Origin: Hoeflea algicola
GTDB lineage: Bacteria > Pseudomonadota > Alphaproteobacteria > Rhizobiales > Rhizobiaceae
NCBI RefSeq assembly: GCF_026619415.1
Contig: NZ_JAOVZR010000001.1
Span: 4,386,501-4,450,500 of the forward strand
Direction: 5' to 3'
Length of the DNA: 64,000 bases
Of the stretch, positions 27,474 through 61,669 are shown piece by piece. The notes under the pieces are model-generated. The model saw only the letters and a list, made by a program, of their open reading frames with translations, ran no database searches and was not told the origin of the DNA. Position 1 is the first letter of the stretch, and the number at the start of each line of letters is the position of its first letter. The translations under genes were made by a program, and so were the position numbers.

Positions 27474-27485
27474 AGAGGATAGAGA

Positions 27486-33016: not shown

Positions 33017-34258
33017 ATGACAACGATCTACTACGAGACCTGGCCCGTCGCTCACCTCATCGACCGCGACGGGATTTTTCTTACGTACGATCCAAGCTGG
33101 GAAAGCCGCGCCTCTGCATTCCCGATTTCATTGACCATGCCTCTGAGGGCAGGTCCCTATGGGGCTGATCAGATCATGCCCTGGCTTGCCAATCTTCTGC
33201 CGGAAACGCACCTCTCCGAGATCGGCCAGCAGCTGAAGATTTCGCCTCAGGATATCGTCGGCCTTCTCATGAACCTCGGCCGCGATACAGCGGGAGCCTT
33301 CTCGATCGGCGAGCCCCGCCGAGACGGAAATAATTTCCGCGTTGTTCCCGATGAGGCAGCTCTTGAGCGCATCCTGAACGAGCTGCCCGAGCGGCCCTTC
33401 CTGGTCGGAGAGCAGGGCGTGTCGATGTCGCTGGCGGGCGTTCAGGACAAGCTGCCAGTCTACGTCGGTGAAGACGGCAAGATCGCCATCCCCGTAGATG
33501 GGACGCCTTCCACGCACATCCTGAAACCCGACATCAAACGCCTGGCCGGCAGCGTTCAGAATGAAGCCTTTTGCATGACCTTGGCCAAGCTGTGCGGTCT
33601 GGAGGCGGCGGAAGTGACAACCGACAGGGCGGGCAAGCGGGACTTTCTTCTGGTCAAGCGCTATGATCGCATCGCAGACAGCCAGGGCACGATCCGTCGC
33701 ATCCATCAGGAGGATTTCTGCCAGCTGCTAGGGTTCTTCCCGACAGAAAAATACGAGCGCGCTGGGCTTGGTCAGCGCGGTGGCGCGTCACTCGTGCAGA
33801 TGTTTGACGCGCTGGCTCGTTACGTTTCGCCCGCAGAACGGCTGAGGATGCTCGACGCGGTGATTTTCAACATTCTGATCTGCAACTCCGACTCCCATGC
33901 CAAGAACTACTCCGTTCTCATTGGGGCGGCCGGCACGGCCAAACTCGCACCGCTCTATGACTTGATGTGCGCTGCGGCTTACAAACAGGTAGACCAGTCG
34001 CTCCCTCAAAAGATCGCGACAAAGCGAAATGCTAATGAGCTTCACGGCGATGATTGGCGTCGATTTGCCGAAGCTGTCGGCTTGAGCCCAGTCTCGGTGA
34101 TCAAGCGTGTGCGTGAAATGTTGGACCAGATTGCAAGCCAGCTGGACGCCAGACCTGACATGCTTTCGGGCGGGCAGGGCAGAGGCGTAGAGATGGCCGA
34201 CAAACTAGGCCATCTGATAGGCAAGCGGTGTCGGCGGATAAACCGGCAGCTTCGTTAG
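33017..34258 (+). CDS. HipA-like serine/threonine kinase toxin
   Basis: A 413-residue protein. The N-terminal couple_hipA domain has LPETHLSEIGQQLKIS. The kinase part has the Gly/Val loop SMSLAGVQDKLPV near residue 135, STHILKPD (ATP Lys), HQEDFCQ and the catalytic NSDSHAKNYS followed by KLAPLYDLM (metal-binding Asp). HipA kinases phosphorylate aminoacyl-tRNA synthetases or related targets and cause dormancy. All key residues appear intact. A 15-bp palindrome core, shared with intergenic sites elsewhere in the island, is embedded at 33325-33339. Confidence 0.92.
   Translation: MTTIYYETWPVAHLIDRDGIFLTYDPSWESRASAFPISLTMPLRAGPYGADQIMPWLANLLPETHLSEIGQQLKISPQDIVGLLMNLGRDTAGAFSIGEPRRDGNNFRVVPDEAALERILNELPERPFLVGEQGVSMSLAGVQDKLPVYVGEDGKIAIPVDGTPSTHILKPDIKRLAGSVQNEAFCMTLAKLCGLEAAEVTTDRAGKRDFLLVKRYDRIADSQGTIRRIHQEDFCQLLGFFPTEKYERAGLGQRGGASLVQMFDALARYVSPAERLRMLDAVIFNILICNSDSHAKNYSVLIGAAGTAKLAPLYDLMCAAAYKQVDQSLPQKIATKRNANELHGDDWRRFAEAVGLSPVSVIKRVREMLDQIASQLDARPDMLSGGQGRGVEMADKLGHLIGKRCRRINRQLR
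33325..33339. repeat. Island palindrome, copy in hipA (15-bp core)
   Basis: CGGAAATAATTTCCG is the core shared with 35186-35206, 50373-50393 and 61047-61067. Here it encodes the residues around GNNFR in the HipA-like protein, and the arms are not extended. Confidence 0.7.
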
Positions 34259-34517
34259 CAAGACGCAGCCGGTGCAGTCCTCAAGTTGGTGATGGCGGGT
34301 CTGAAGAACACGGCCTCTCTCACTGAAGATTCGACTAACGAGCGCCGCAGGGTAAAGATTTCACCCCACGAGGAAATCATGAGCGCTATCGAGACAGGTG
34401 GGCCATAAAGTGCAGGAAATCGACAAGCTTCTTGCATCACGGATTTCAAGTATCCCCGACTTGTCGGTTTCTGGAGAGCCCGCGAGTCAAAGACCGAACG
34501 GGTCAGCATGCTGCGCG

Positions 34518-35063
34518 TCAAGCGCCGTGACTTCTGTCGTATCCATTTGGCATTGGCTCCTGCCATCCGTCGGGATGTGCCGTCGGTTTGTACACTTCGG
34601 CAAGGAGCGGGTAGCATGCGACTTCATCAGAGGAGTGCTTGGACGAGCAGTCCCCTCCAGGGCAGGCCGACATGTTGCCCAAAGTGATAGTTGCAATAGG
34701 ACGCATGTAAGGAAAGTTTGAGAACAGCTGATCGCCAAGTCCAACGTGCGTGCCGTTAAGTTCGCGTGTCTTGCCGCTGTAAAAACGTTCATTGATGTTG
34801 TGGAGGTTATGCAGATTGAGATCGCCCACCTGAGGTCCGTCCGAGCAAACCAATCGGCAGAAGTGTCCGGCCGGGACGACCCAGGTGGCAGCATCGCGAG
34901 GGGGTATAACGATCGCCTCTATAAGTTCCATGTTGTCGCGCAGAGCACGGTATGCTGCAAGATCAGGGCGCGGCAGCATCTCTATTGGATAGCATACAAC
35001 TGGCTTGACCGCTTTGCGAGCGGCTGCGTCTTCCGGAATTTCTGTGATCGGATCAGGCTTCAT
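34518..35063 (-). CDS. DUF1989 / urea carboxylase-associated family protein
   Basis: This is 181 residues from ATG 35063, which has GGAG six bases upstream; 35141 is a longer alternative. The core AAYRALRDNMELIEAIVIPP, WVVPAGHFCRLVCSDGPQVG, and NERFYSGKTRELNGTHVGLG fits DUF1989. A Cys-containing ACPGGDCSSKHSSDEVACYP and a YDRSHG ending follow. Relatives accompany urea/allophanate or nitrogen-compound metabolism. No such genes are adjacent, so this is a stranded metabolic gene. A palindrome lies 120 bases upstream. The stretch 34259-34517 before it shows nothing recognisable. Confidence 0.7.
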   Translation of the reverse strand: MKPDPITEIPEDAAARKAVKPVVCYPIEMLPRPDLAAYRALRDNMELIEAIVIPPRDAATWVVPAGHFCRLVCSDGPQVGDLNLHNLHNINERFYSGKTRELNGTHVGLGDQLFSNFPYMRPIATITLGNMSACPGGDCSSKHSSDEVACYPLLAEVYKPTAHPDGWQEPMPNGYDRSHGA

Positions 35064-35185
35064 AAAATTCTCCGCATTAGCCTCTATCGGCCGTGACACA
35101 ATCGCTGAGCGCCTCTCCTCATTCGGAAGGATCGTCCGCAAAAGACCAATTGTACGTCAAGCAGCAGTCACTGCGCCCGCTCATA

Positions 35186-35206
35186 AAGCGGAAATAATTT
35201 CCGCTT
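35186..35206. repeat. Island palindrome, perfect 21-bp copy
   Basis: The core GCGGAAATAATTTCCGC with AA/TT on the flanks forms two perfect 10-base arms around a central A. It lies between the DUF1989 gene start and the end of the type III res gene. 24 bases (AAAGCGG... to ...CCGCTTCG) are identical to the copy at 61046. Confidence 0.85.
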
Positions 35207-35248
35207 CGAATGGAACTAGTTGCTCCGCATCACGGTAGCTTAGCCCTG

Positions 35249-38200
35249 TCACGCGGCCTGCTTCACAAGCGCGATCAGGTCCGCATAGCTGGTGACGACA
35301 TCGTACCTGACCCGGTCCTCGTTGATCATCCGGCCAATCTCGTCAAAGAACTTTCGGGCACATTTGACTTTCGTCTGTTCCAGCTCTCGCATTTTCATCG
35401 AGGGCTGATCGGACTTAGTCTCTGCTACGAAATAGAGGTGTTTAATGTCGCCCTCTTTGAAGGCAATTGCCCAGTCAGGATTGTAATCACCCACTGGTGT
35501 GGGGATCAGGAAACCGCGTGGCAGCTTGGAGTAGACGACTACCTCTGTGCTGGTGTCGAGGTCCTTGACGAAATCTCGTTCAACCTGTGAATCTAGGATG
35601 GCATAATCATAGATATGATTTTTCAGCTTATCTGAAGCTTTCTTGAAGTCAGCGCCAGTTTCGGCAGCTGTGAAAATCTCAGAGTCATATCGTTCTGTTA
35701 CGGCATCGTAAGTCAGCTTTTCGATGATCGCGATCGCCTTCTGCTCCTGGATCATATGCGAGGCGTCCGCGATGAACTGCTCAGGGTTCTTCGCGAATTC
35801 ACCAAATTTCACAGCCTGAATTCCGGACAGGATTTCTGTCACGGTCTTGCGTGTGAGGTCAGTGTTCTCGGCTATCGCACCAATCAAATCGTATGAGACA
35901 CGGGAATGCGCGCTCTTGCCGGTTTCGGCGCGAAGCTTGCCTTGCACGAAGGCTTCGCCGGCACGTAGCTTTTCATCAGTCACCTGATCGGAAAGGCTGC
36001 CTTCTGTTACCAGATATTGCAGCGGAGCGACCTGCAAGTCCCGATCCAGCCGGTCGATACAGCTCCTGACGAGCGCAGCGCTGTCAAATTCGACCTGATA
36101 GATAGCCTTGCGGTTAATCCGCCGCCATAGTTCCTGAAACTCTTTCCGATGGAAGTTGTCATTGAGCCGGTTCTTTTTCGGCTTGCGACCATTGCTGAAC
36201 ATGTCCTCCACGGCTTTTCCGTTGAAGACCGTGTCAACCAAGGCAAAGACGGCGTCGCTATGCGCCTGGAATTCTTCAGGCAGCTCTGCCAGTTCGCCAG
36301 ACTTGCGCGCCTCGTGGTAGGCCGCTGTGATGAGACCGTCGTCATCGACATAGTCGTTCTTGAGCAGGAAGCGTTCGAGCTTCTTGGCCAACTGTTTGTC
36401 AAGAACCAGCTCCAGATCATCGGTCTTGAGGGTCTTGCCATCGAAATACTCGGCATCAGCCTGCTTGGGTCGGGTTGAAAGGTTGTCGACGATCTCTTTC
36501 TGCAAGCCGGTGACAAACCCCTTGTAGCTTTCCGAAGCGACCACAGTGAGGACATTGATGTCATGCACAGTGACAGGGTGGTCCATTCGTTCGCCGTTGC
36601 GGTTGACCGCGATCCGCAGTCCTCGCCCGACCTCTTGCCGCCTTGAAATCGTATTCTGGCTTTCATTGTGCTTGAGCATGCAGATCACAAAGACATTCGG
36701 ATTATCCCAGCCTTCGCGCAGGGCGGAATGGGAAAACAGGAACCGTGTGGGTTCTTCGAAAGACAGCAGGCGCTCCTTGTCCTTCAGGATAAGATCATAG
36801 TCGCTGGATTCAGTGGATTGCCCTGCCAGTTCGCCCCGAGCTGCAGCCTTCGGGTCAGTCATCCGGCCTTTCTTGTCAATCGAGAAATAGCCGCGGTGGG
36901 TTCTGCCAACCTCTATGCCCTGCAAATAGGTGCGATACTCATCATTCTCCAAGGGCAGCTCTCCCAGCAGATCATCCACGGCTTGAGCGTATTCCTCTTC
37001 AAAGACACGGGCATATTCACCCTGTTCATCGGCCTGGTCATAATCACGGTATTTCACCACCTCGTCGATGAAGAAGAGTGACAAAACCTTGATCCCGCGT
37101 GCAAACAATACCTGCTCGCGCTCCAGGTGGGCCGATATGGTCTCGCGTATCTGAATACGGCGGATGTCGCGCTCGGTCACATCTCCAGAGGCTTCACCGG
37201 CAACCAATACATCGCCATTGGTAAAATGGACCGTGTCGTCACGGGCATCAATATTGCTGACGATGAACCCCTTGTAGACTTCCAGCCCCTTAGACAGATC
37301 GAAAAGATTGCGCCCCTGCTCCAGCTTGCGGGGGACCCGCTTGATCCCAGTCTGGGTCTTCACTTCGATATCGACCCAAGCCACTGGGGCGGCGCGGGAG
37401 GTCTCAATACGGTGCAGGAAAAGATAGGGGTTTGTCCCGCTCAACCCCTTGGTTTCGACACCACGGACACGGATTTTCTTGACCAGCTTCTCGTTGAACG
37501 CATCCACGGCATCCAGACGATGCACCTTATTGTGGATCGTTCTGTGCGTTGCTGAGTAGCGCATGATAAACAGCGGATTGAATTTCGGAAGCGCTTCCTG
37601 GGTGGCAGGCCCTTCCATTTTTTGCGGCTCGTCCAGAATCAGGATTGGACGATTTTTGGCGATCACGTCGATAGGCTTGCGGGACTGGAAATCATCCAGC
37701 TCGTCATAGATACGGCGGTTATCCGCACCAGATGCATTGAACGCCTGCACGTTGATGACCATCACATTGATCCCCGCATCAGACGAAAAACTCTCAAGCT
37801 CGTGCAGCCGCTTGGAGTTGTAGACGAATGCCCGCACTTTCCGGCCGTACTCCTGCTGGAAATGCTCGGCTGTCATCTGGATCGATTTCGCGACGCCTTC
37901 ACGGATGGCAACGCTTGGCACCATGATGATGAACTTCGACCAGCCATAGTTCTTGTACAGCTCAAACATGGTCTTGATGTAGACATAGGTCTTGCCCGTC
38001 CCGGTCTCCATCTCGACATCCAAATTGATCCGCGCACCAGGCTTGTACTTGGCCGGTTTCTTCTTGCCCTTGTCATCGATATGATGCGTAAGACTTTCAG
38101 AGAGCGGCAGCACTGCGCGGCGCTGGACTTTGCGAATGTTGTCCAGCAGTACGTCCTCGGGCAGCTTGATGGGAGAATTGCCGAAACCATCCACCTCCAT

Positions 38201-38332
38201 CCGGGATTGGGCTGCTGCACCAGGATCGATTGTGTATTTCAACGAGTCTTGCCGGAGCTGGCTGGCAAAACAATCGACCACTGCGTCGACCGCCTGCGTC
38301 TGATAAGGCTGCGACTTGAACTTGATCTTCAT
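35249..38332 (-). CDS. Type III restriction enzyme Res-like subunit (DEAD helicase + PD-(D/E)XK)
   Basis: A 1,027-residue protein. The SF2 helicase core has Walker [13 protein letters not shown] (residues 108-119), motif II DEPQ (234-237), a motif III-like RYSATH, and motif [18 protein letters not shown]-terminal nuclease site reads [13 protein letters not shown], then VAETKSD, the PD-ExK pattern. Res subunits translocate along DNA and cut when complexed with Mod. It lies downstream of mod, separated by a 50-codon ORF, and is the last gene of the cassette. It is intact. Confidence 0.93.
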
Positions 38333-38393
38333 GACTGCCGCTTTCGTAAATCAGGCGATTCTCTCATAATTTCTTTCGTAGGATGTTCTGGTT

Positions 38394-38546
38394 TCATTCG
38401 CAGAGCTTCCATCTTGGGGCCGTCCTGGAACCGGTACTAAAAATCTTGCCACCAAAGGCCAGCTCTCTGGCATCGACACCTTGCCCACTGTATCGCCAGG
38501 TGGCTAGCAGGGATTGCAGCTTCTGGCATAGGGCGAATTGCTTCAT
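38394..38546 (-). CDS. Small ORF between mod and res
   Basis: A 50-codon frame, beginning MKQFALCQKLQSLLATWRYS and ending RWKLCE, starts five bases after the mod stop and ends 61 bases before res. It is basic, and no family is recognised. The close spacing to mod and lack of other content in the 220-bp gap favour a real small gene. No good RBS is visible, so confidence is low. Confidence 0.35.
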   Translation of the reverse strand: MKQFALCQKLQSLLATWRYSGQGVDARELAFGGKIFSTGSRTAPRWKLCE

Positions 38547-38550
38547 GGGA

Positions 38551-40450
38551 TCAGATCGCCTTCACATCCGTATCCGGCGAGAGGGATTTGAAAATCTGCT
38601 TCACGTTGATCTTGGTGGAGTCGTCCTTGAAGCCAGTATCCTTGAACACCACGCGCAGCGGTTTGCGGGCAGCCAGTTCCTTCACCAGCACTTCGTCCAC
38701 ATTGTTGTCGAAACACGCAACCAGGGCGGCGCCGGCGACGGTGAACACTGTTTTGCCGGCCACAGTTTCACGGGAGATGGGCAGGGTCAGGTCCACGCCC
38801 CAATCGAGCAGCACCTGAAACAGCAAATCCTCGGGCGACCGGCCGGCTTTGATATTGTCCACCCGGGTTAGAAGGTCAGCTTGCGCGGTTGCATCCGGAG
38901 TGTAGTAGACCTCGGCCATATTCGAGCTGTCAACTTTCAGTACGCGAAAGCCAACATCCCGGTTCCAATCGGGATGACACTCCCCTTCGAGGATTTTTGC
39001 GCCAGCCCGACGGATGCGTTCTTTCGATAGATCGGCAATTGTCGCAAAGCCTGCCTTACTTGCTTCAGAAGCGTGTCCAGTTGATTCAGGAAGCTGAACC
39101 ATGACAAATTTGCGTTTCCCCCCGTCGGAGGCATTTTTTTCATCACCGCATGTGCAGTAGATGAAGCGCCAGCAAAAAAGTCTAGAACGATGTCATCGCC
39201 TTCAGCACCCATATCAATAATGTGCTCAAGCAGGCCAACGGGCTTCGGATTCTCGAACATTACCGAGTTTCCAAATATCTCACTCATTTCATTCGAACCT
39301 GATGTGTTAAAAGGTGCAAAATCCCAGAGAGTTGTCCACGTCATTCCTTCTTTGACGTCACGTAGAAAACGTTTCAACTTTGGCGATGCCCTATCGTCTT
39401 TTCCAAAATAGATTTCGTCGTTTTCGATCAAGGCCTTTACGCGATCACTGTTGAACCGCCAATTCCCGTTGTTTGCTGGATAGAATTCCTGCCCCGTCCG
39501 TGGATTAGTAATTGGATAAAAGAGAGTTTCGACAAAACGCCCCCCTTTACGTTTGCTGTAAGATCACCTGCAACCCAAGGCCCTTTTGGGTGGTTGTCGG
39601 GATTTTTGTAACGTGCGATCTGGTCATCACTTCTGGGGCGTAATTTAATCCCAGAAAAATCCCTTCTGACGTAGGCAATAATATAGTCATGCTGTGTCCC
39701 AATTAATTTATCATTTGGAGGTGTGTTCCGTTTCTTCCAGATTATCTGCGCGGCGAATTGTTCTTCGCCAAACACTTCGTCACACAACTTCCTTAGATTT
39801 GACACTTCTCCATCGTCAATCGATATAAATATAATTCCATCTTTTTTAAGAAGTCTTTTTGAAAGGCTGATTCTTGAATGCATCATCGATAGCCAATCAG
39901 AATGAAATCTTCCGTTCGATTCTGTATTCGAGACAAGCTTATTTCCAACTTCATCTAGTTGAAGTGATTTTTTTAAGAATTGATTATTGTTTTCCGCGAA
40001 GTCGTCATTGTATACGAAATCTCTACCTGTGTTATAGGGTGGGTCGATATAGATCATTTTGATCTCGCCCAAATAGGTCTCCTGAAGCAGCTTGAGCGCC
40101 TCAAGATTATCGCCCTCGATAAAGAGGTTGCGGGTCGTGTCAAAATCCACGCTTTCATCCCGCGCCGGGCGCAGTGTTTTTGCAATCGGCGCATTGGCCG
40201 CGATCAACGCCTGCCGCTTGCCGGGCCAGTCAAGGTGATACCGTTCTTGCGGCCCTTCGACGATGCTGTCGGACAACTCCTGACGCAGCAGGTCAAAATC
40301 AATCGCACGGCGCAGTGTGCCATCTGGGCACGTGCTTTCCGTCACACATCCCGGAAAGAGTGTCGCAATCTTCTCGATGTTCTGCGCGGTCAGGTCGGGG
40401 CTGTGCATCTTCAGCTTTTCGATCGGAGTGCTTTCTGGACTATCTGGCAT
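38551..40450 (-). pseudogene. Type III DNA-methyltransferase Mod, two homopolymer frameshifts
   Basis: This would be about 632 residues. The beta-class order is visible: FIEGDNLEALKLLQETYLG and IYIDPPYNTGRDFVYNDDF (catalytic DPPY) in the first piece, and DIVLDFFAGASSTAHAVMKK (SAM-binding) in the second. A C-terminal piece from MVQLPESTGHAS ends SPDTDVKAI. Frame is lost at 39540-39545 (G6 on the coding strand where seven restore GGRFVETLFYP) and at 39134-39140 (A7 where eight restore MKKNASDGGK). Each is a one-base deletion in a homopolymer. Either phase-variable slippage, a recent knock-out or sequencing error explains it. The 39.6-40.0 kb part looks AT-richer than its neighbours. Confidence 0.88.
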
Positions 40451-40470
40451 TCTGGCCTCTCTGCCGCCCG

Positions 40471-44995: not shown

Positions 44996-45142
44996 CCTGA
45001 TCTCCTGGTTCATCATGGATGACCCAGTGTGATGGCCGGCGATGCAAGGAACAAACGCCGTTTGCCTCGCAATGTTGACAATCTGGAAGGGGATTGGTCC
45101 GCAGGCTTGGTTTCGAGGTCTCCAATCCCACTGCCGCAAACG

Positions 45143-45205
45143 CCGTTCACAGAGGAATCGCGGTTTCCCAGTTTCGAATCGGCAAGACCGAATCCAGAAT
45201 CGCGG
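45143..45205 (-). repeat. 21-bp degenerate direct repeats, 3 units
   Basis: On the minus strand three consecutive 21-base units begin CCGCGATTCTGG, TGCCGATTCGAA and CCGCGATTCCTC. They match the consensus of the ten-unit array at 45765-45974. They lie in a different reading phase from that array, so the conserved entity is DNA rather than protein. The rest of 44996-45450 has no recognised gene. Confidence 0.6.
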
Positions 45206-45764: not shown

Positions 45765-45974
45765 ATCGTCTGACGTGAACCGCAGTTTCCTGGGCTGGAA
45801 ACGGCTGCGCTGAATTCGGAATCGCCAAGGCTAAATCTGGCAACGCGGGGACTGATTTCCGAAACGGCGAATCTTGGGTCGGACTCGCCGTTTCAGTATT
45901 CAGAATCGCAAAGGCCGACTTGGGAATCGCGGGCGCCGAGTTTGGTAACGCGGGAACCGAACTCTGAATCGCAG
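45765..45974 (-). repeat. 21-bp degenerate tandem direct repeat, 10 units
   Basis: Exactly 210 bases divide into ten 21-base units on the minus strand. The consensus starts CCGCGATTCC and continues with a GAATTCGGCC-like half. GCGATTCC-like cores recur at the same phase in nearly every unit. The array begins three bases after the stop of the M41 protease gene. One frame (46014 to 45727) stays open as a 7-residue PNSAPAI-type repeat. A coding origin is possible, but the same units recur out of phase at 45143-45205. Confidence 0.7.
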
Positions 45975-45976
45975 TT

Positions 45977-46753
45977 TCAGGGCGCCGCTTTTTTGGAGCC
46001 CGTTGCAGTGGCATTCATTTCCTGAGCAAGCAGTGCTCTCACTTCGCCGCCATCAAGGGTCTTTGCTTCTGCAAGGCGGGTTGCCAGTGCTAACAATGCA
46101 TCGTGATGCCGAGATAACAGTTCGAGAGCCATACTCTCTGAAGCTTCAAGCCGGTCATGAACATGCTGCGCAAGCTGCCGATCCAGTGAGAGCATTGATG
46201 GCTGTTCTTCCAATGATCGATAGAGCAACGGCTGAGCCCTGCCGAACCCAACGTTCGTTTCAGCGTCAGTCGCAATCTTTGTCGCTCGCGCAAGATCAGA
46301 CCTTTCACTTCCACCAGCGCCAACACCAGCTTCGCCAAAGATGAGCTTTTCCGCTGCTTGTCCGGCAAGTGCGCAAGCAATCATCTGATTGAGCCAAGAT
46401 TGAGTTTGGACAACACCCTGTCGCATTTCGCTTTCGACATAGCCGCCAGACCCATTTCCAACGGTCACAGTAAAGACGGTTGCGATGTCGAACGCAGTCC
46501 ACGCCAGCGCGTGGCCTGCTTCGTGGACAGCGATGCGCCAGACAAGGTCTGGTGGCATAGCTGCCTGGCCCGCGGTGAGCGCTGCGTGGATGTCGCTGTA
46601 AGTGAGCTGCCTTTTTTCACGGCGAGCTTTCTGACGTGCTTCGCGGATCAGACGCTCAATGTCTGCACCTGTGCTACCAGCAGCAGCCAACGCCAAAGGC
46701 AGGAGTACCGGGTTCACATCGGGCGCTGCAGCCGAGAGATGAGAATTATCCAT
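45977..46753 (-). CDS. M41-type zinc metalloprotease (FtsH protease half, with AAA lid)
   Basis: 258 residues without a membrane segment. Residues 28-60 (STGADIERLIREARQKARRE) match the C-terminal lid helices of FtsH AAA domains. The peptidase follows: HEAGH at 77-81, GQAAEKLIFGEAG near 131, and RSDLARAT with Asp153 as the likely third zinc ligand. It starts at ATG 46753, overlapping the stop of the AAA+ gene by eight bases. It therefore looks like the proteolytic half of an FtsH split between the ATPase core and the lid. Substrates are unknown. The two chains presumably form a soluble protease complex. Confidence 0.88.
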   Translation of the reverse strand: MDNSHLSAAAPDVNPVLLPLALAAAGSTGADIERLIREARQKARREKRQLTYSDIHAALTAGQAAMPPDLVWRIAVHEAGHALAWTAFDIATVFTVTVGNGSGGYVESEMRQGVVQTQSWLNQMIACALAGQAAEKLIFGEAGVGAGGSERSDLARATKIATDAETNVGFGRAQPLLYRSLEEQPSMLSLDRQLAQHVHDRLEASESMALELLSRHHDALLALATRLAEAKTLDGGEVRALLAQEMNATATGSKKAAP

Positions 46754-48842
46754 TGATGAGCACTCCTTCCTTGCTGTCGTAGAGTTGATCACTGCCGTTA
46801 CCGGCAATCGTGGTGTTGCTGTGTCCGGGCAAAGTCCCAGCCGGACTGGTACGACCGACCAACCTGCCCATCTCACTGCTGTTCAAGATCGCATTGAGAT
46901 CGTTACCCAGATGATGGGCAATGATTGTCGCAAGAGCCGCTGTGTCTGGCTGCGGGATTACAATGTGTTTCTCAAGACGGCCTGAACGCAAGAGTGCAGG
47001 GTCGATCTTGTCTGGCCTGTTGGTCGCGCCAACGACGATGACGCCTTCGGTTTTTGCGGCACCATCGAGCAATTCGAGCACGCGGTTCACAAGGCTCGAC
47101 CAGTAATCATCATAAGGCCGGTCACTGCCGCCGCGGTTTCCGATGTTGTCGATTTCATCGATAAACAGGATGCACGGAGCTGTCCGAGTGGCATGTTCGA
47201 ATGTTGCATTCATCGCAGCCAGAACATCGCCAAGGTTCGACGACTCCAGCCATCTGGCCACCGACGTCGCGACCAGCGGAACCTGAAGCGTGTTGCAGAG
47301 TGCCTTTGCGAATGTTGTCTTGCCTGTGCCGGGCGGCCCGGAGAGCAGCAGCCGTGAACTGAGATCAGACCATGCGACTTCCTTATTGCCGAACGCCCCA
47401 AGGTCGCCCTTGAGATCAAGCGACCACTGCCGGGCATCGCCATATCCGGCCAAATTTTCAACGAACAGGTGATCCTTTCCGGTGGACGGTTTGGCAGACT
47501 GCTTCGCGGTCTGCCCCTTGGCTGGTTCTGACGCGGTCGGTTCTTTGACTGGATCGATGATGTCGAAGCAGCCCGCATATTTCTCGCGCTTCTTTGTTTC
47601 CGACCGTGTCATAAGAGTGCCCAATCGGCGCTCCTTGTCTTCGTCCTCTTTGGCTTCGGCCATGGCCCGGTTTTCGGCTTCAAGCGTCAACAGGATTGCG
47701 ATGATCCTGGTCAGCGATCGTCCAGGGCGGATTGCGATCGCGAGATCATCAATGCCGAGATGACCGGGCTCGAAATCGAGTTCCGTCATGAGGAACCAAG
47801 TGCGACTGATCGGGATGTTGTGGCAGATTGCAAGCACATCTGCGATCAGGCTGGCATCAATTCCACCTCCCGAGATCACCATGTCCGCGACAGCGACAAG
47901 CCGAGCCGGTAGGGGCTGATCACGCTCGTCGCAAATGATGAGTGGTTTGAACGCCGTGAGAACCCGCTTCGATACGATCGTGCGAAGTTCGTCATCATCA
48001 TCATACCGCTTTAGCGAAGCGCTCCCGAAACAGCTGAAAGATTTCCGTGGCGTTGTATCCGCAAGTGCTTTGAAGCGGCCAGTCAACGTTGGGCCTTCTG
48101 CTATCGGTTCAAGCGACACATGAAACGGCAACGCCGAGCCGTCTTCGAGCAAATAGCCGAAGTGTCTTTCGAAGTCCCTGACTGGGACTTGGACAGCAAC
48201 AATGGATTTCTTCCGTTTCATGATCGAGAGCAGTCGGTCAATGGCATGCTCATCCTGCTCAAATGCCCTTGAGAGCAGCAGCGCCGCAGCAACTTCCGGA
48301 ACCTTGGGTGCCGACGCAAAGCCCGCTACAATCGACAGGACATGATCCCGAAGTGCAGCCATATTCCGGAATGGCAGATTGGCCGCCGTACCCTCTCCAG
48401 GAATTGGACCACACGATGTGGACGTCAGGTTTGCGGGCGGCTCACTTTCACCGCCAGCTTCAGGCAGCGTGTCGGAATGTCCCGCAGCGTTTCCAGTGGA
48501 CTCGGTGGATACCTCGATGACAGTTTCGTCAGCGCCATCTTCTTCATCCATGTTGAATGCGTCCTGATCAACAGATTCTAGCTTACGTTTGATCTGCTTC
48601 CTTTTTCGCGAAGAAGCTTCCAGAAGCGAGCGGATCAATTTTCGGTCCTTATCGACATCACCGGAAAAGAGTGCGGCCGTTTCCGCCGCGAGATTCCAGA
48701 CCACCCCATTGTTCTCGCTTTCGGCGAGCGGCTGACTTTCAAGAATGCCGGCGTCAATAGCTCGACCGAAGGCTTCTAGCCGAGCGGCGCGCTGCTGACG
48801 TGCAATGAGATATTTGGAGACGCGTTTGCTGATCTTGCTCAT
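46746..48842 (-). CDS. AAA+ ATPase (FtsH-like unfoldase half)
   Basis: 698 residues from ATG 48842, which overlaps the upstream stop as TGATG and has GAGGAGG before it; the longer frame to 48965 is rejected. The N-terminal 400 residues are unique and include an acidic linker. The C-terminal AAA+ domain has Walker A LLSGPPGTGKTTFAKALCN, Walker B CILFIDEIDNIG and the second region of homology VIVVGATNRPDKIDPALLRS with the Arg finger region GRLEKHIVIP. The lid expected after it is instead at the start of the next protein. There is no transmembrane helix, unlike true FtsH. Confidence 0.9.
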   Translation of the reverse strand: MSKISKRVSKYLIARQQRAARLEAFGRAIDAGILESQPLAESENNGVVWNLAAETAALFSGDVDKDRKLIRSLLEASSRKRKQIKRKLESVDQDAFNMDEEDGADETVIEVSTESTGNAAGHSDTLPEAGGESEPPANLTSTSCGPIPGEGTAANLPFRNMAALRDHVLSIVAGFASAPKVPEVAAALLLSRAFEQDEHAIDRLLSIMKRKKSIVAVQVPVRDFERHFGYLLEDGSALPFHVSLEPIAEGPTLTGRFKALADTTPRKSFSCFGSASLKRYDDDDELRTIVSKRVLTAFKPLIICDERDQPLPARLVAVADMVISGGGIDASLIADVLAICHNIPISRTWFLMTELDFEPGHLGIDDLAIAIRPGRSLTRIIAILLTLEAENRAMAEAKEDEDKERRLGTLMTRSETKKREKYAGCFDIIDPVKEPTASEPAKGQTAKQSAKPSTGKDHLFVENLAGYGDARQWSLDLKGDLGAFGNKEVAWSDLSSRLLLSGPPGTGKTTFAKALCNTLQVPLVATSVARWLESSNLGDVLAAMNATFEHATRTAPCILFIDEIDNIGNRGGSDRPYDDYWSSLVNRVLELLDGAAKTEGVIVVGATNRPDKIDPALLRSGRLEKHIVIPQPDTAALATIIAHHLGNDLNAILNSSEMGRLVGRTSPAGTLPGHSNTTIAGNGSDQLYDSKEGVLING

Positions 48843-49406: not shown

Positions 49407-50318
49407 TCAGTGGCGGGTGGGCGCTTGAGCGAAGCCCAACCTGATTAGCTGCGGTTTGCCGCTGGCATCCATGATGTTGGTGTCTTCAAAGGATTTGTCA
49501 TCCTCATCATCAGCCTCAACGTCATCGAGCTCGACCTCGGGCTGAACTGGGAGAGCTATCGGCAATTGGGAGGACTTTGCGAACGCCTCGCAAGCCTGTT
49601 TCCAGTGTTCGTCAACACGAGAGCGAAACTCTGCCTGCAAAGAAGCGATCGCTGCGCCAGCACCTTCAACTTGAACCAGATGGTCCAGCTGCGACAGATG
49701 CCAGATACCGCCGTTCAGGTCCGTCTTCCGATTGTCAGCTGTCAGGATGACGACCCTGACTTCTTTGACGTTCAGGCGTCGATGTTCTTTGTAGAGAAAG
49801 TCCGGCAACACAAGGCCCGCAGCTTTCATCCGGTTTTGCAAGTCATCAAGTCGCACGCGGTCGTATGTGTAGACACTGCGTTTTGCATCGACGATATGCG
49901 CCGTGTTGGTTCGCTGATTGAGAATGACGAAGTCAGGCGTGTAAGTCTTTCGACCGCCCATATCCGCATCGAACGTCAGTGCCCTGAAATTCAGGGCGTC
50001 ATTCATCTCGACGATTTGCAAGGCCGTCGGCGAAATCGGCAAGCGCAGGTTCTGCGTCAAAACTTTGAGGTCTGGGTTGCACCTCGCAACGGCAGCGATG
50101 CCGAGTTCGATGAGTCTGCCTTCAATTGCAGGCAGTGGCCGAAGCACAGCGGCAAGGGCATCAATACCGCCAGATAGTGCTTGCGCAATGGCGTCTACCG
50201 ACAGCGAGGGATCGACGAGTTCATTGATGAACGCATCGAACTGCAGCTTCAGTTCCAGAGAGTCTGCAGAATACGCATACACGGGTGCGGTGGTTGTCTT
50301 AAGTGTGGTCTTTGTCAT
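49407..50318 (-). CDS. PD-(D/E)XK-like nuclease-domain protein
   Basis: 303 residues from ATG 50318 with a strong AGGAGG. The N-terminal half is helical. The centre has GGRKTYTPDFVILN followed by TAHIVDAKRSV, the D...DxK arrangement of PD-(D/E)XK enzymes. A helix-strand region EVRVVILTADNRKTDL and an acidic tail DDVEADDEDD follow. The TPDF and tail resemble TnsA-type endonucleases, but this is not proven. It is the first gene of the leftward gene run, and a perfect palindrome lies 55 bases upstream, in its likely promoter. Confidence 0.75.
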   Translation of the reverse strand: MTKTTLKTTTAPVYAYSADSLELKLQFDAFINELVDPSLSVDAIAQALSGGIDALAAVLRPLPAIEGRLIELGIAAVARCNPDLKVLTQNLRLPISPTALQIVEMNDALNFRALTFDADMGGRKTYTPDFVILNQRTNTAHIVDAKRSVYTYDRVRLDDLQNRMKAAGLVLPDFLYKEHRRLNVKEVRVVILTADNRKTDLNGGIWHLSQLDHLVQVEGAGAAIASLQAEFRSRVDEHWKQACEAFAKSSQLPIALPVQPEVELDDVEADDEDDKSFEDTNIMDASGKPQLIRLGFAQAPTRH

Positions 50319-50372
50319 GGAAACCTCCTGTTGGAGAGCGATGACGGCAGCCGGGCAGACACAGAGGCTCAG

Positions 50373-50393
50373 ATGCGGAAATAATTTCCGCAT
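50373..50393. repeat. Island palindrome, perfect 21-bp copy before the nuclease-like gene
   Basis: The core GCGGAAATAATTTCCGC is extended by AT on both sides. It sits 55 bases upstream of the start at 50318, where a repressor or activator of the leftward gene run would bind. Confidence 0.85.
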
Positions 50394-53847: not shown

Positions 53848-53940
53848 CGGTTGATTGCCAACGGTTGCACTGAACTGGAAATCACATGCGTATCGCTCAG
53901 CCCGAAATGGGTAGGGTATGAAAAAAATGGGAATGAGAAT

Positions 53941-54501
53941 TTGGTTAGGTTTGCTTGCCTTGGTTGGGGGTCGTTGATTTGGGAGCCCCGCGACTTACCT
54001 ATTTTGCATGAATGGCGCGAAGACGGGCCACCCCTGCCGCTTGAATTCGCGCGAAAATCTCATGATGGCCGCATGACGCTTGTTGTATGTAGAAAAGGAA
54101 CTTTGTGTTCGACACTTTGGAACACTCTGTCATCGACTTCGTTGGAGCAAGCGCGCGAGGCACTTGCCGTGCGCGAAGACCTTCCAAGCAACAGGAATGC
54201 TGCATTCTGGACCAGTTCTGGAGCATCTGATCATTACGGTGCGGAGCTTGTTGGGGCTTGGGCGAATAAACATGGTTTCGCTGGCGTCGTATGGACTGGT
54301 CTTCCGCCAAAATCACCAATCACGAATCAGAACAACGATCATCCCTCTATTGAGAATGTCATCTCGCACCTCAGCGGTCTCCAGGGACTCTCTGCGAGAA
54401 GGGCCGAAGAGTATGTCCGTAGAGCACCAAGACAGATTGCCACCGCGTATAGAAACCGGATTGTCGAAGCGTTTGGTTGGGACGGACCGATTGAACTATA
54501 G
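53941..54501 (+). CDS. Conserved hypothetical protein with GGCT-like N-terminus
   Basis: About 186 residues from TTG 53941; the frame extends back to TTG 53851, but homologs of this type start just before the motif FACLGWGSLIWEPRDLP. That motif resembles the gamma-glutamylcyclotransferase-fold nucleotide/peptide loop, and PLPLEFARKSHDGRMTLVV follows. The C-terminus (GLSARRAEEYVRRAPRQIAT) is helical. Function is unknown. It lies 93 bases after the SMC-like ATPase and could belong to the same operon. The following 54502-54764 shows no gene. Confidence 0.65.
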   Translation: MVRFACLGWGSLIWEPRDLPILHEWREDGPPLPLEFARKSHDGRMTLVVCRKGTLCSTLWNTLSSTSLEQAREALAVREDLPSNRNAAFWTSSGASDHYGAELVGAWANKHGFAGVVWTGLPPKSPITNQNNDHPSIENVISHLSGLQGLSARRAEEYVRRAPRQIATAYRNRIVEAFGWDGPIEL

Positions 54502-54764
54502 GAAACTAGCAGGCGCCAAGGTCAGCTTTGGGGAAGCTGCAATGCAGCACCGGCCGTCAAGACAGATGTCTGCAAAGGGGCCGCAACTTGTCAGAATGCT
54601 TGTGTGGACGAAGCTGGCGAAGTAGACATTCAGCTTCAACCTTAGCAATGTCACTTCCGGCCCGCTTAGTTTCTTGGGGCTCGTGGTGCCGCCACGAAAC
54701 TATCGCCCAAAGTCGGCTAAACCGACCGCCTTCGAATTCTCCTCTGAGGTTCACTATTTGACTA

Positions 54765-56225: not shown

Positions 56226-56537
56226 CGTTGCTCTCTTTCCAAAAGCTAAAAACCAAAATCAATTTTTTGCGAAATTTCATCATCGGGAAACATGAAGCAC
56301 CATAAGCAGGCATACGCCAGCGGGATGGAAGCTAGCGGCCGCATTGTTAGCATTGATGCGGTTGGGGCAATCTACATCTAAGGTCCGCTTGCCGCCCCTG
56401 TCCGAACCTCAGCGCGGCGCGCATTGAATGGCCGCTTACGGGTGATTGGTCCGCGGTCGCGAACGGCCGAATTGGCGGCGCAATGCGGACATTGATGTAC
56501 ACCGCCTGCGGAGACACTTTCGGTCCTAAGCCGCCGT

Positions 56538-56780
56538 TTACGATAACAATCTGAAGCTGTGGTGCGGTCCATCAGACAGGATATTCTTACTCAGATATCT
56601 CCTCCTTGGAAACACCGCTGTGGATTGCTGCAATACCGGCAAATCCGCGTTGCCAGGCTCTTTAACTTCTCGAAAGAGTGCACGACTGCTGACGATGCTC
56701 CAGTCACGGGGAACCTGCTCAATCCAGTCAACGCCATAGTCGTTATAGCTGTCGTATTTAGATTGCCCATCCAGCATCAC
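56538..56780 (-). pseudogene. Type I restriction specificity subunit HsdS, N-terminal remnant
   Basis: 80 codons starting MMLDGQSKYDSYNDYGVDWI followed by QVPRDWSIVSSRALF, the typical HsdS N-terminus. It stops soon after FPRRRYLSKNILSDGPHHS. The start overlaps the stop of the DUF262 gene by four bases, so it was once a coupled gene. The 56226-56537 stretch after it contains nothing recognisable. Confidence 0.75.
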
Positions 56781-58609
56781 ATTATCTCTTCTCCCAGCAG
56801 CCGTTCTGGCGTCCAGATCAGTGCGGCGAGTTTGGAATAGAGCTTGGATCGCTTCTCCATCTCGGTCAGCCCGAACTCATTCAGTGGTTTGAACTCAAGT
56901 CCGTATTCTTGCACCGTCTGCCGGAAGCCGGGGTTTTTGTCATAAAATGCCTCGTGCAACGATTGGGCCAAGGCATTGGCCTTGAGGTAATGCGGCAGCT
57001 TTTCCGCATAGGTCAGATCGCTCAGGCTGGCATTAATCTTTTTGGGTAGCAGCAAAAGCCCACCGATGTGATTCCGGGTGCGGTCGAAGTCGCCCAGTTG
57101 ATCAAACACATCAGCTAACCGGTCATAGTGATTGGCCCAGATATGCTCGACCTCATAGGCATTCTTGCCCGACCGTACGATGTAATCTTCGTATTTCCCC
57201 GGCACCCCTGATTTCTGTTCCAGCCAATCGGTAAACCGGGCGAGTTGACGGTGGATCGCCTTGGACGTGAACTGATTTAGATGAACCGGTTGGGAGAAGT
57301 CGATCTCGGCCATCTCGCGTAGCAAATGGTCGTGAAGGATGGTGCGAACCTTGGCCAACGACTGACCACGGATTTTCTGGATCACCAGAAACACGGCGTA
57401 GGACATGGTGGAATAGCTGTTGGATTTGTAGTTCCAGAACCGCAGGTTCAGCCAAGAATCGAGGAAATCAGCAACCACGCCGACCTTGGCGGTTGCGGTG
57501 TCTTTATCGTCATCGGGCGTGATAGCAGCGAGTGTGACATGGTGCTGTAGCGTGAAACCTGCATCCGCGACATAGCGGACACTTTCCAATCCATCCTTGC
57601 GGGTGCGGGCCGCATCCAACAGTCGCAGATAGAGGGCGGCATAATAGCGGAAGTTCCGCATCACAAATTGGTGGAAGTCGCTGCCTTGGTTCAGCCCCAG
57701 ATCAGCGGAGTGATTTCTGATCCAGCGATGGTATTCGGTGCCGATCAGGTCGAAGTCTTCGGGCTTGGCGTCCTTTTTCCGTTCCCTGATCTTCTGCGCG
57801 TACTGCGACCGCAGCCATGCCTTGAAAAAATCGGAGTCGGATTCTTTGCCGTGCTCCGCAAAGAGCGCCAGATATTTCTTGATGAGTTTATCTGCCTCAA
57901 GCCGCTTTTCGGTGTTGTCGATGTTGGCCAGCAGGTAGCCCTTGAGCATGTCAGTCGGGGTCAGAGACAACCCCCTGTCGTTCATGGTCTCAAAGATCGT
58001 GTAAGCGTCCTCGTCCGCATAGGCGATGATCTCGATCAGCTTCACCTTCCGCATTAGCCAATAGATAAACAACGGCAGAGCGTCACCTTGGAGTTCCTGA
58101 GGAAATAGCTCGTTGAGGTCTTGGTAACGAGCTGTCAAGTTGCGAACCGACTCCGAAGCGTCATCGGTGTTGAACGGCGTGTTATTGAACAACGCCTCCA
58201 TGCAGTCGTTGCGTTCAGGCACATCCATCTTGAATTTTTTCTCGCCGAAATCATCAGCGTAGATCATGGATTGGATGGACACCATTTTCTCATGGCCCTG
58301 CTGGAGGTTATTCAGATAGATCAGCATGATCGACAGGGAAGTCATCCGCTGTTGGCCGTCCACAATGTGCCGGACGTCACCATTTTGGCTGACCACGATT
58401 GAACCCAAGAAGTAGTGCCCATAGTGCGCAACTTCCTTGGAAGCATCCCCCGGCTGATAGCTGTCGAGGAAGCGCCCCGTCAGGTCATCAACGAGTTCCT
58501 GAAGCTGTTTGCGGCCCCATTTGTACTCCCGCTGGTAATAATCAATTCCATAGCTGCCACCGGACAGTAGTTCTTGAATGGAGCGGTCATAGCCTTTGAT
58601 TTCCTGCAT
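56777..58609 (-). CDS. DUF262/DUF1524 GmrSD-like nuclease
   Basis: A 610-residue protein. The N-terminal DUF262 (ParB-like NTPase) has YQREYKWGRKQLQEL and the motif IVDGQQRMTSLSIM near residue 85, then NDRGLSLTPTDMLKGYLL. The C-terminal DUF1524 HNH has YEVEHIWANHYDR and RNHIGGLLLLPKK. Fused GmrS and GmrD domains define the type IV, modified-cytosine-dependent restriction family. Here the coupled truncated hsdS points to a former type I restriction operon. The gene itself is intact. Confidence 0.9.
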   Translation of the reverse strand: MQEIKGYDRSIQELLSGGSYGIDYYQREYKWGRKQLQELVDDLTGRFLDSYQPGDASKEVAHYGHYFLGSIVVSQNGDVRHIVDGQQRMTSLSIMLIYLNNLQQGHEKMVSIQSMIYADDFGEKKFKMDVPERNDCMEALFNNTPFNTDDASESVRNLTARYQDLNELFPQELQGDALPLFIYWLMRKVKLIEIIAYADEDAYTIFETMNDRGLSLTPTDMLKGYLLANIDNTEKRLEADKLIKKYLALFAEHGKESDSDFFKAWLRSQYAQKIRERKKDAKPEDFDLIGTEYHRWIRNHSADLGLNQGSDFHQFVMRNFRYYAALYLRLLDAARTRKDGLESVRYVADAGFTLQHHVTLAAITPDDDKDTATAKVGVVADFLDSWLNLRFWNYKSNSYSTMSYAVFLVIQKIRGQSLAKVRTILHDHLLREMAEIDFSQPVHLNQFTSKAIHRQLARFTDWLEQKSGVPGKYEDYIVRSGKNAYEVEHIWANHYDRLADVFDQLGDFDRTRNHIGGLLLLPKKINASLSDLTYAEKLPHYLKANALAQSLHEAFYDKNPGFRQTVQEYGLEFKPLNEFGLTEMEKRSKLYSKLAALIWTPERLLGEEIM

Positions 58610-59018
58610 CTGGTCAACCCTCCACCGATATCAGTTTGAATTTGCAACGCTTTTATATCAAACTAGTCGACCGCTGAATGATATCACCGATCTTACGCTG
58701 CGAGTAAACACCTCTTCCGCACGAGACCTATCGGGTCGTATTTCATCTGACAAGAACAGCCCGATTACGGATCAAAGTTCTAGCTTAGAAGGTGAGCTTT
58801 CGCTGTATGTTGGGAGAGGATGTGAATCCGTAGCGAAGGTTTGGTTCCTGCCCGCTTGAGACCTCTGCTGGATTCTGTCGCACAGTAACTCACGGCCCAG
58901 AGCGGTCATGGAGTGCTGAGGGGCAGGGGAACGTTCCTCCAGCGTCATGCCCGTCACCGCCGCCGATATCCGGCAAGATCGAAGTGCATTATGAGTGATT
59001 TCGCTTGTCGGTGGGCTG
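58610..59018. other. Intergenic stretch with no recognised gene
   Basis: About 410 bp between the DUF262 and DUF4160 genes. Only short frames occur and no repeat, RNA or IS end is evident. It must contain the promoter of the leftward DUF262 gene. Confidence 0.5.
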
Positions 59019-59606
59019 CTACTTTTTTATCAACTTCTGATCGTCCGGGCGGGTTTTCTCCCATTCTTTCAGTATGTCCGACAGGTTGTCCTGCACGGCT
59101 TTGATTGCCGCAGCCTCGCCTCTCAGCCCCTTCTTTCCAGCAATGACTTTGGGGTCAGGTTTGGCGGATATGTTGATCTTGCCGTCTTGCAGACAGACGG
59201 TGACATGCGGAAATCCAGCATGCTTAGACTCGTTAGGATAAACGAACATCCGGAAGCTCGTGTTAAGGAAAAGTTCTTTCTCGTCAAGGCGGACCGGTCC
59301 CTCGGCAATGGTTTGCTCAGCGGACTCAAAGCTCTCTGTCAACGCAGCCTCAAGCTCATTGGAAAACACCAGCTCTTCGCCGTCTGGAAAGACGGCAAGT
59401 CGCCCTATACCGCGCTCCCTGGCAAGTTCGACAAGGTCTCCGTCGTATCCTTGGGTTAGTAGCTGGCGCGCGGCAACCTCGTATGCAGTTTGTAGCGCCG
59501 CATCAAATTCTACGCCTGCCTTGATCGGCTTAGCAGCCAGTTTCCCCACCCGTTCTGCCATTGCTTCCTCGACCATGTCGAGCTTTGTTTTCTCAGTCAT
59601 GGCCAT
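59019..59606 (-). CDS. DUF4160-like domain protein
   Basis: 195 residues (ATG 59606 or ATG 59600). The C-terminal half carries PHVTVCLQDGKINISAKP, followed by VIAGKKGLRGEAAAIKAVQD and NLSDILKEWEKT, the DUF4160 pattern of small domains often found in toxin-antitoxin-like pairs. The N-terminal half is helical, with LARERGIGRLAVFPDGE. No partner gene is adjacent on the same strand. It is divergent from the next gene. Confidence 0.65.
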   Translation of the reverse strand: MAMTEKTKLDMVEEAMAERVGKLAAKPIKAGVEFDAALQTAYEVAARQLLTQGYDGDLVELARERGIGRLAVFPDGEELVFSNELEAALTESFESAEQTIAEGPVRLDEKELFLNTSFRMFVYPNESKHAGFPHVTVCLQDGKINISAKPDPKVIAGKKGLRGEAAAIKAVQDNLSDILKEWEKTRPDDQKLIKK

Positions 59607-59804
59607 CCCCGACCCAAATGAACGAAGGAATCCCAGACGCCGTGTTCGACCGATTTAATGGCATTCCTGACGAGCTTGTCCGCGTGTCCTCACACTTCCG
59701 CAACCCGGCGCAATCACTTGGTTGCGTCCCCGATTTGCGGGTGTCGCCGCTTGTATCATCTGAGTCGGGTGTTACAAGCGACCAGAGACCGATGGGGTGG
59801 AGTG

Positions 59805-60923
59805 ATGAGTACTGTGTGGGGCGTAGGAAAGCTATTCCATAAAAGAACAATTGACGTGTGGGAGTGGAAACAGTCCGACATCTTGAAAAAACGACTGCCG
59901 AATAATCCAAACTGGTCGGCTCTGGCGGAGAAACACGCCGCTATGTCTTTCACCCCACTGCAATTGGCCCATGCGGTTGTGAAGGCCGACTTTCTGAATC
60001 CGACCAGTATCATCCTGCCTGGGATTGGGTTCCTTCTCCAAGCGAGTCAGATCGTCGACTTCAATCAGGTCGATTTCCGACTTGCGAATGGAGGGGCAAC
60101 TGCGCTCAATGACTTCTCTGGTACGAGCCTCTGCGGTCGGCTGGCACAAGGCTTTACGCTGCTATACGCCGACAAGAAGGGTTATTCCTTCGTTGGCCCT
60201 CTCAGAACCCATCTTGTCGCATGTGGAGCACTCTCTCCCGGGGCCAAGGCGGTCAAGGCGGCTGACTTCCTGTTCGAAGACGCAAACAAGGATCGTATCA
60301 TAGTCGAATCGAAGGGATCGTTTGCGGACACAGGGAATGATCCAACGATCGTGAAAACCAAGCTGAAGCGGGCGCTGGAGAACCAAGTCGCCCCCTGGAT
60401 CAACAAACTGACACCGCCTGCCTCCAAGGGGTTCGTGTTTTTATCACAAATGCGGGAGACGGGTCACAAGGAGAAATCGGCACTTATCTTCGTCGACCCG
60501 CCCTCCGACCAAATCATTGACCCGGTGGATGTGCCAGAGGATTGGCTCAAAAGGCATAACTACGCCGCTTGGCTTACGATTATGGGACTCCCACGACCTG
60601 CCCAGCGACTTCGGGCTAGAGACGAGTCCCGTCTGAGGAAAATCTCATTGCCCATTTTTAAAGTGGGACGATGGAAGATCGTGGCTACCCAACCATACTA
60701 TCATTGGGGGTTCGGGACTGGCTTCGGTGTCGGCATGGAAGCAAGCGCGCTAGAGATGGTGAGCGACGCTCGATCGGGCCGTGTCGAGAATCTGATTGGA
60801 TACCGTGGCTTGGAAGGCGTGGATGATGAAGGCATGTTTCGCGGTAGCCTCATGCACGACGGCAGTTATCTGGGACCGTTGCGCGGCCGTGACCTGATCG
60901 GCTTCCGAACATTCATATTGTAG
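59805..60923 (+). CDS. Putative PD-(D/E)XK restriction-like protein
   Basis: 372 residues from ATG 59805 (GGGGTGGAG upstream). Most of the protein matches no family I know. The central segment ADFLFEDANKDRIIVESKGS contains a D-x9-ExK spacing typical of PD-(D/E)XK nucleases, followed by VKTKLKRALENQVAPWI. The C-terminus (GTGFGVGMEASALEMV, FRGSLMHDGSYLGPLRGRDL) is Gly-rich. A stand-alone restriction or defence nuclease is the best guess. Confidence 0.55.
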   Translation: MSTVWGVGKLFHKRTIDVWEWKQSDILKKRLPNNPNWSALAEKHAAMSFTPLQLAHAVVKADFLNPTSIILPGIGFLLQASQIVDFNQVDFRLANGGATALNDFSGTSLCGRLAQGFTLLYADKKGYSFVGPLRTHLVACGALSPGAKAVKAADFLFEDANKDRIIVESKGSFADTGNDPTIVKTKLKRALENQVAPWINKLTPPASKGFVFLSQMRETGHKEKSALIFVDPPSDQIIDPVDVPEDWLKRHNYAAWLTIMGLPRPAQRLRARDESRLRKISLPIFKVGRWKIVATQPYYHWGFGTGFGVGMEASALEMVSDARSGRVENLIGYRGLEGVDDEGMFRGSLMHDGSYLGPLRGRDLIGFRTFIL

Positions 60924-61669
60924 CCGTCCCCTTGGTCGGCACAGCCGAGGTCTGCTGTTGGCGCACTGGCGACGTAACCTAGTCTGAAACCACGACCTCT
61001 TCCAGGCGACGGCCAAGATGGCCTCAACGGCAGTAATGGCGGCGCAAAGCGGAAATAATTTCCGCTTCGGGGCTGTTACCAGTTCGGCCGCTTCCTGAAC
61101 AAGAATGACACAAGTGGTCAAAACGGCGCGGCCTACCCACGTCGGCTATCGGCCCCCTTCCAGTCATTTGGTCATTGAAAACAGCGGTCACTACAGACCT
61201 TCGAATCGTCCCCAAGTATGGAACAATTACCGGGTCGGCGGTTCCACCTCGGGAGGCTTAGCCCAAGGGTGCATAGCCGCGATACGGCATTAATGATGGT
61301 CTGCCAGACCGCTCTGGGCCGTACGCTCCAACAGAGTCGCAGGTCATAACCATTGTTCGTCAACTCGATCGTTGACGACAGCGTGAAACAATTTCCGGCC
61401 ACAAAATACATCGGTTCAAGGGATTTTCCCATTGCGTGGGAACGCAATTAGGACGCTCTTCGGGCCGCATAGGGGAGATCAGATAGCGTCGAACCGTAAA
61501 TATAAAAAGTTGTAAGGATGTATAAAAAGAAGAATCTAAGATAGAATTTGACGACTAATAATCATGAAACTCCACAGACGGCAAAAATAAAAGAATTGCA
61601 ATTATTTATTATATGATATATAATAGTAAAGCCTACCTATATCCAGATCAATACTAACAGGAGATCAGA
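60924..61669. other. Large non-coding region with palindrome and AT-rich leader
   Basis: About 745 bp without a gene. It holds the palindrome at 61047-61067 and, from about 61490 to 61665, a markedly AT-rich stretch with many TATAAT-like words, directly before the DUF3102-like gene. A promoter or an origin-like unwinding region are both possible. The sequence alone does not decide. Confidence 0.5.
61047..61067. repeat. Island palindrome, perfect 21-bp copy
   Basis: Same site as at 35186-35206 with identical AAA...TTCG flanks; core GCGGAAATAATTTCCGC. It lies 603 bases before the DUF3102-like gene and 124 after the nuclease-like gene. Confidence 0.85.

Follow-up and report, generated by a model that had tools for sequence, protein, structure and literature searches.

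A palindrome repeated over tRNA-integrating islands of Rhizobiaceae, with a DUF3102 protein as its candidate binder

A short palindrome, CGGAAATNATTTCCG, recurs four times in a 64,000-bp stretch of the Hoeflea algicola genome (contig NZ_JAOVZR010000001.1, positions 4,386,501 to 4,450,500 of the forward strand; hereafter the window), and comparison across genomes indicates that it is a site of a family of tRNA-integrating islands in Rhizobiaceae, very probably bound by some dimeric protein that the islands themselves encode. The fuller proposition, that this protein is the island's DUF3102 protein and that it regulates a core operon headed by ORFA (a nuclease-like gene, followed by ORFB, an AAA ATPase and a separate M41 peptidase), is in our estimation evenly poised between right and wrong. 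The 5.18-Mb genome holds 13 exact places of the site against a GC-adjusted expectation of ~0.014: four in the window, three in each of two other tRNA-borne islands (E1 and E2) and three on a further contig, C2, that duplicates E2. No exact copy lies elsewhere in the genome, and a reversed-pattern control gave no match in the whole of it. A preliminary description of the window had argued that such a 15-mer is not due by chance and had called for a genome-wide count of the core; the count bears this out, all 13 places falling in the islands and the duplicate contig, and no even spread over the genome was seen. Six more places appeared when one mismatch was allowed, none of them within the three islands or C2; in locus L118, one lies 214 bp upstream of a gene distantly homologous to ORFA. 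Within the window, ten matches with at most three mismatches were counted on both strands, a number reached in 0 of 100 shuffles. Chance or coding coincidence as the origin of the site is rejected on the shuffles, the genome count and the position of the site upstream of ORFA.

Beyond this genome, the 15-mer was found in 10 of 18 genomes of the genus and the 17-mer in 18 of 199 of the family (the source genome included in both), and the site was found in none of 239 other genomes of the class. ORFA itself occurs in Hoeflea, Rhizobium, Shinella, Sinorhizobium, Neorhizobium, Ciceribacter, Agrobacterium, Mycoplana, other Rhizobiales and one metagenome-assembled genome of Devosia. A role as a packaging signal, raised in the preliminary description, or as a phage signal finds no support: 2.9 million viral contigs yielded only 32 single matches, taken as near chance, and no ORFA relative was found in phage records. 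One viral contig (L117) holds an element of the site-bearing family.

The four window copies lie where they had been described (Table 1), three of them as perfect 21-bp palindromes pairing around an odd centre base (20/21 bases) and two of these, copies 2 and 4, identical over 24 bases. Most copies extend the motif to GCGGAAATNATTTCCGC, which in those three reaches 21 bp. In 118 distinct sites that deviate by no more than one mismatch, most of them from loci fetched by the site itself, the centre base varies freely (A 56, T 36, C 17, G 9).

The most constant copy is the one upstream of ORFA. In loci fetched by the site, it is centred 18–77 bp upstream of the called ORFA start in 18 of 21 homologues; as this sampling is circular with respect to position, 40 loci were then fetched by the ORFA protein alone, some of them the same as site-fetched ones and with the start extrapolated where the match was partial. 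The site lies 41–143 bp upstream in 34 of these 40 (24 exact, eight with one mismatch and two with two, the centre ignored) and persists down to 38% protein identity. It is absent from five (L097, L098, L103, L106 and L112), three of which carry exact copies elsewhere (inside the AAA gene in L103 and L106); in the last, L114, the contig end cuts the region off. Copy 3 had been placed in the likely promoter of the nuclease and split-protease run, and its position is thus conserved across the family. Three plasmids (118–164 kb) each carry one copy 59–77 bp upstream of an annotated ORFA, and the NT-25 plasmid has two more, 1–4 kb from its DUF3102 gene. On pNg7g2 (L190) and NT-25 plasmid 3 (L191), the ORFA-AAA-M41 module lies close to repABC. 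A diverged group has no copy at ORFA and shows a symmetric variant, CGGCAATNATTGCCG, about 15–17 bp upstream of the AAA gene; L131 and L134 carry the half-sites TGCAAAT and TGGAAAT, twice each, and mixed forms changed on one side only also occur. Symmetric change of both half-sites is the behaviour of a dimer-bound site as its protein changes.

The site is not merely a promoter element, because copies also stand at element ends, in convergent gaps and inside hipA. Among 128 distinct copies, variants included, 93 are intergenic, 31 lie inside predicted genes (some of these being artefacts of start-codon choice upstream of ORFA) and four could not be placed because a stretch end is too close; random positions fall inside genes in 79% of cases by the same in-house gene finder. 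Of the intergenic copies, 46 have tandem genes on either side, 20 divergent and 27 convergent ones. Copy 2, correctly described as near the DUF1989/res junction, sits in the gap between both genes with its centre 55 bp upstream of the DUF1989-like start. In elements at tRNA-Ser genes, the outer copies were located at 140, 267, 307 and 342 bp inside attL (four elements) and at 156–157 bp from attR, and in several tRNA-Gln elements a copy or near-copy follows just after the recombinase stop; such places would suit an accessory site for excision or integration, of arm type or for a directionality factor. We consider this improbable as the general explanation, given that the copy upstream of ORFA is at least 10 kb from an end in E1 and E2 and that on the three plasmids the ORFA copy is alone or joined by two more at a distance.

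The copy within hipA bears on a further candidate, the HipB-like protein. It occupies the same codon position in seven further close and mutually distinct HipA genes, with an exact 15-mer in L045, L071, L074 (these three being site-fetched loci) and L085, and one mismatch in L057, L101 and L102; in L101 and L102 the five site codons are unchanged while 43–45% of codons agree elsewhere. A by-product of the protein motif GNNFR is therefore unlikely, as the same position and codons are kept in relatives. These conserved codons would agree with an operator of the HipB-like protein, a reading to which we give hardly any credence: a close hipA occurs in only 4 of 41 ORFA-fetched loci, against an upstream site in 34 of 40, so that the site is not tied to hipBA operons. 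The hipA cluster is present in five of 44 loci compared for shared genes, E1 and E2 not among them.

Within the same 44 loci, with truncated loci scored as missing, the shared core comprises ORFA (38), AAA (39), M41 (33), DUF3102 (29), ORFB (25) and ORFE (17). The preliminary description had supposed that a single dimeric regulator may coordinate the island, naming the HipB-like protein, the DUF3102-like protein or an off-window factor. The supposition of one regulator gains from the confinement of exact sites to one island family, their absence from the other genomes of the class and the near-invariant position upstream of ORFA; DUF3102 is the best of the named candidates, and the HipB-like protein is disfavoured, as is a host factor such as a global regulator, because no exact site lies outside the islands. 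The N-terminal half of the DUF3102 model resembles the DNA-binding domains of ParB, Noc and KorB in predicted fold. Their N-terminal CTPase domain is absent from the model, whose residues 1–46 form one low-confidence helix and coil, with no such domain before residue 47 and no such Pfam match. Among co-resident DUF3102 homologues without lysine or arginine at position 103, the canonical operator is found in 0 of 7, and one of the seven has a different palindrome at the operator position. Counted by locus, 37 of the 42 that have DUF3102 at full length carry the site, as do 1 of 4 with a partial one and 13 of 26 with none, a weak table in that several of the 13 stretches end before a DUF3102 gene (seven truncated or duplicate loci left out; duplicates L156 and L157 kept).

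Profile comparison gave no sequence-level match and so lends no support to the link with ParB. The arms of the palindrome covary beyond its core (of 118 copies, 64 are paired at ±9 where 35.5 are expected, and 87 at ±10 where 75.8 are), which a hairpin would explain and plain dimer binding would not, shared descent being another possible source. A hairpin in RNA or single-stranded DNA, acting in translational control or as a terminator, would also fit the arms of 14–19 bases in some copies, the placing of some in short convergent gaps and the AAA variant, which overlies a likely ribosome site. The nearly invariant core, not needed for a hairpin alone, the lack of a T-run after the inspected copies and the possibility that the covariation stems from shared descent leave this account quite improbable.

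An unlikely but less distant alternative is that the site is an autoregulatory operator of another core protein (ORFA, ORFB, ORFE or AAA), DUF3102 doing something else. The conserved position upstream of ORFA or AAA suits it, as does the small, basic nature of ORFE. ORFA is present in 14 of the 18 site-bearing family genomes (23 of the other 181) and DUF3102 in 15 (19 of the other 181); the ORFA figure likewise agrees with such an operator. Against it, ORFA, AAA and M41 also occur in elements without a recognised site (L128, L129, L130 and L133, for instance), and L032 has DUF3102, a recombinase and the site with no ORFA in its genome, G031. If DUF3102 is nevertheless the binder, its dimers would occupy the copy ~65 bp upstream of ORFA and would control, probably repress, the nuclease-ORFB-AAA-M41 operon; at the other copies (close to element ends or to the recombinase gene, before DUF3102, in hipA and in cargo gaps) they would mark and organise the whole element, with a possible role in its excision or inheritance. 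We infer repression, element marking and inheritance, and of the functions proposed earlier the site may serve regulation or partition.

Islands E1 and E2 show direct repeats at a tRNA gene together with a site-specific recombinase, the latter having no Pfam match and being named from its position and the cross-match of two recombinase profiles on L103. A 20-bp repeat, of which a tRNA-Ser gene contains one copy, flanks E2 (C1 3408635-3439731); E1 (~20 kb) is flanked by 20-bp repeats at another tRNA-Ser gene. A third copy of E2's repeat lies at C1 4021995. Contig C2 (31,061 bp) is 99.98% identical to E2 and looks like an excised E2 circle, or an alternative path through a mixed population in the assembly, because it ends at the same 20-bp repeats, 16 bp short of one full turn. 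In the window, the shared genes continue past 61067 with the DUF3102 gene (61670-62830) and then a recombinase gene broken in two frames, and the right end lies near a tRNA-Gln gene ~1.7 kb past the window end. A plus-strand search of the window and the 40 kb before it for exact 12- to 16-base words of the tRNA end found no left repeat. From its sequence, the window island looks decayed because of the broken recombinase gene and the lack of a second tRNA-end repeat, and it is probably immobile because of the former. The 2.6-kb stretch at 25766-28351, which contains two open reading frames of 252 and 509 aa, matches C2 774-3359 at 99.96% identity and is probably a recently moved insertion sequence.

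Table 1 Features of the window
Feature	Position	Strand	Remarks
Site copy 1, CGGAAATAATTTCCG	33325..33339	.	in hipA reading frame, centre 315 bases into gene
Site copy 2, 21-bp palindrome AAGCGGAAATAATTTCCGCTT	35186..35206	.	between res stop and DUF1989-like gene start
Site copy 3, 21-bp palindrome ATGCGGAAATAATTTCCGCAT	50373..50393	.	centre 65 bp upstream of likely ORFA start (50318)
Site copy 4, 21-bp palindrome AAGCGGAAATAATTTCCGCTT	61047..61067	.	centre 613 bp upstream of DUF3102 gene
ORFA, 303 aa, PD-(D/E)XK-like nuclease	49407..50318	-	first gene of core operon; no Pfam family
ORFB, 159 aa	48842..49321	-	no Pfam family
AAA ATPase	46746..48842	-	start inferred; mechanical ORF to 48965
M41 peptidase, separate protease half	45977..46753	-	start inferred; mechanical ORF to 46876
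ORFE, small basic protein, about 112 aa	44675..45013	-	start inferred from homologues
DUF3102 protein, 386 aa	61670..62830	+	favoured candidate binder; Pfam PF11300 at its cut-off
hipA	33017..34258	+	carries site copy 1
HTH protein (HipB-like)	32558-33004
Tyrosine recombinase gene, broken in two frames	62940..64000, on to about 65557 past window	-	fragment matches PF00589
CG[AT]T[TAG]C hexamer array, phased at 21 bp	45798..45971, also about 45154-45205	-	between M41 and ORFE

ORFA probably starts at the ATG at 50318, preceded by AGGAGG; a longer mechanical reading frame that starts inside the palindrome is probably not a real gene. Residues D129, D144 and K146, which we take to be a PD-(D/E)XK nuclease signature, are kept in 16 of 16 aligned homologues. 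Sequence searches of solved structures with profiles of DUF3102, ORFA and ORFE returned nothing useful. PADLOC matches among the window cargo include type III restriction and modification, an SNF2-type helicase, LmuB/PtuA-like ATPases, a caspase and HEC-06/Orf5 models; E1 carries Vsr, cytosine methylase and HATPase proteins. The gene for the type III methyltransferase (38551-40450) is seemingly broken into several frames, its 337-aa piece matching only the first half of the model, with res intact. For the AAA protein (46746-48842), the best PADLOC matches are IetA models (E 1e-22); a part for the core operon in defence or exclusion is possible.

A second cis feature is the phased hexamer array (Table 1), of which a run of at least three hexamers lies between M41 and ORFE in 39 of 41 loci (drawn from L077-L157, five duplicate or split loci left out). 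Such runs number 63 in 27.7 kb of M41-ORFE gaps against seven elsewhere on both strands of 765 kb, and in reversed sequences they reach at most three hexamers. Elements that lack the palindrome, L129 and L133 among them, can carry the array too; as a guess, it could be an origin of iteron type or an array to which ORFE binds. Another palindrome, GCAAACGNCGTTTGC, was seen in six loci (L024, L063, L091, L096, L112 and L122), mostly near ORFE, with an imperfect form in the window at about 45054-45068. Elements without the site hold other palindromes, with CGGATC and GGCAAA half-sites.

ParB/parS and Noc/NBS systems use few near-invariant palindromes that are tolerated in genes and confined to one replicon or region. 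The islands resemble them in such palindromes and in the fold match of the predicted DUF3102 DNA-binding half; they differ in that no ParA was recognised among gene families common to at least 8 of the 44 loci, as far as these could be identified and with cargo genes not all typed, and in that DUF3102 has neither the CTPase domain nor a sequence-level match. KorB of plasmid RK2 acts at O_B sites both near to and far from promoters, copies of one short palindrome that recurs over the element (PMC11790492). The present palindromes are likewise repeated over an element and, in exact form, absent from the rest of the genome, and the DUF3102 model resembles the KorB DNA-binding fold; here the model lacks the N-terminal CTPase domain, the site sequence is another and no KorA-like partner is known. 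Our reading, by analogy, is that the known kind of system to which this would belong is that of dispersed operator sites of the KorB/Noc type.

SGI1 is an integrating island with few ParB-type palindromes, parS sites of its IncC helper, that can serve inheritance of its circle (PMC10954446). By that precedent, the copies could be centromere sites borrowing the ParB/RepB of a resident plasmid, and the module does lie near repABC on two plasmids. This is very unlikely here, on a comparison that covered RepB and not the chromosomal ParB: the genome's only RepB match is on contig C3, and C3 and C4 lack the site at up to one mismatch, so that, unlike SGI1, the present islands seem to bring their own candidate binder, the resident RepB plasmid having no site. 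With tRNA-integrating defence islands, they share 20-bp direct repeats at tRNA-Ser, an end-located recombinase gene and defence-like cargo, and differ in an undescribed core of DUF3102, nuclease, separate AAA and M41 proteins, phased array and ORFE. A literature search, with most subscription papers outside its reach, found no description of a role for DUF3102, of the site or of the module.

The palindrome thus marks a family of mobile elements of soil and marine bacteria that carry defence genes, and DUF3102, a family without known function, gains a concrete candidate DNA target. A broader proposal, which we put forward tentatively and hold to be possible at best, is that of a new maintenance module in which a CTPase-less, ParB-fold DUF3102 protein with its own dispersed centromere-operators, the nuclease, the split FtsH-like protease and the 21-bp-phased hexamer array (a possible origin or second centromere) would jointly govern how islands and plasmid segments across Rhizobiaceae are expressed, excised and inherited. 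If a ParB-type domain does work here without a CTPase clamp, site-specific binding would be separated from clamp sliding in nature.

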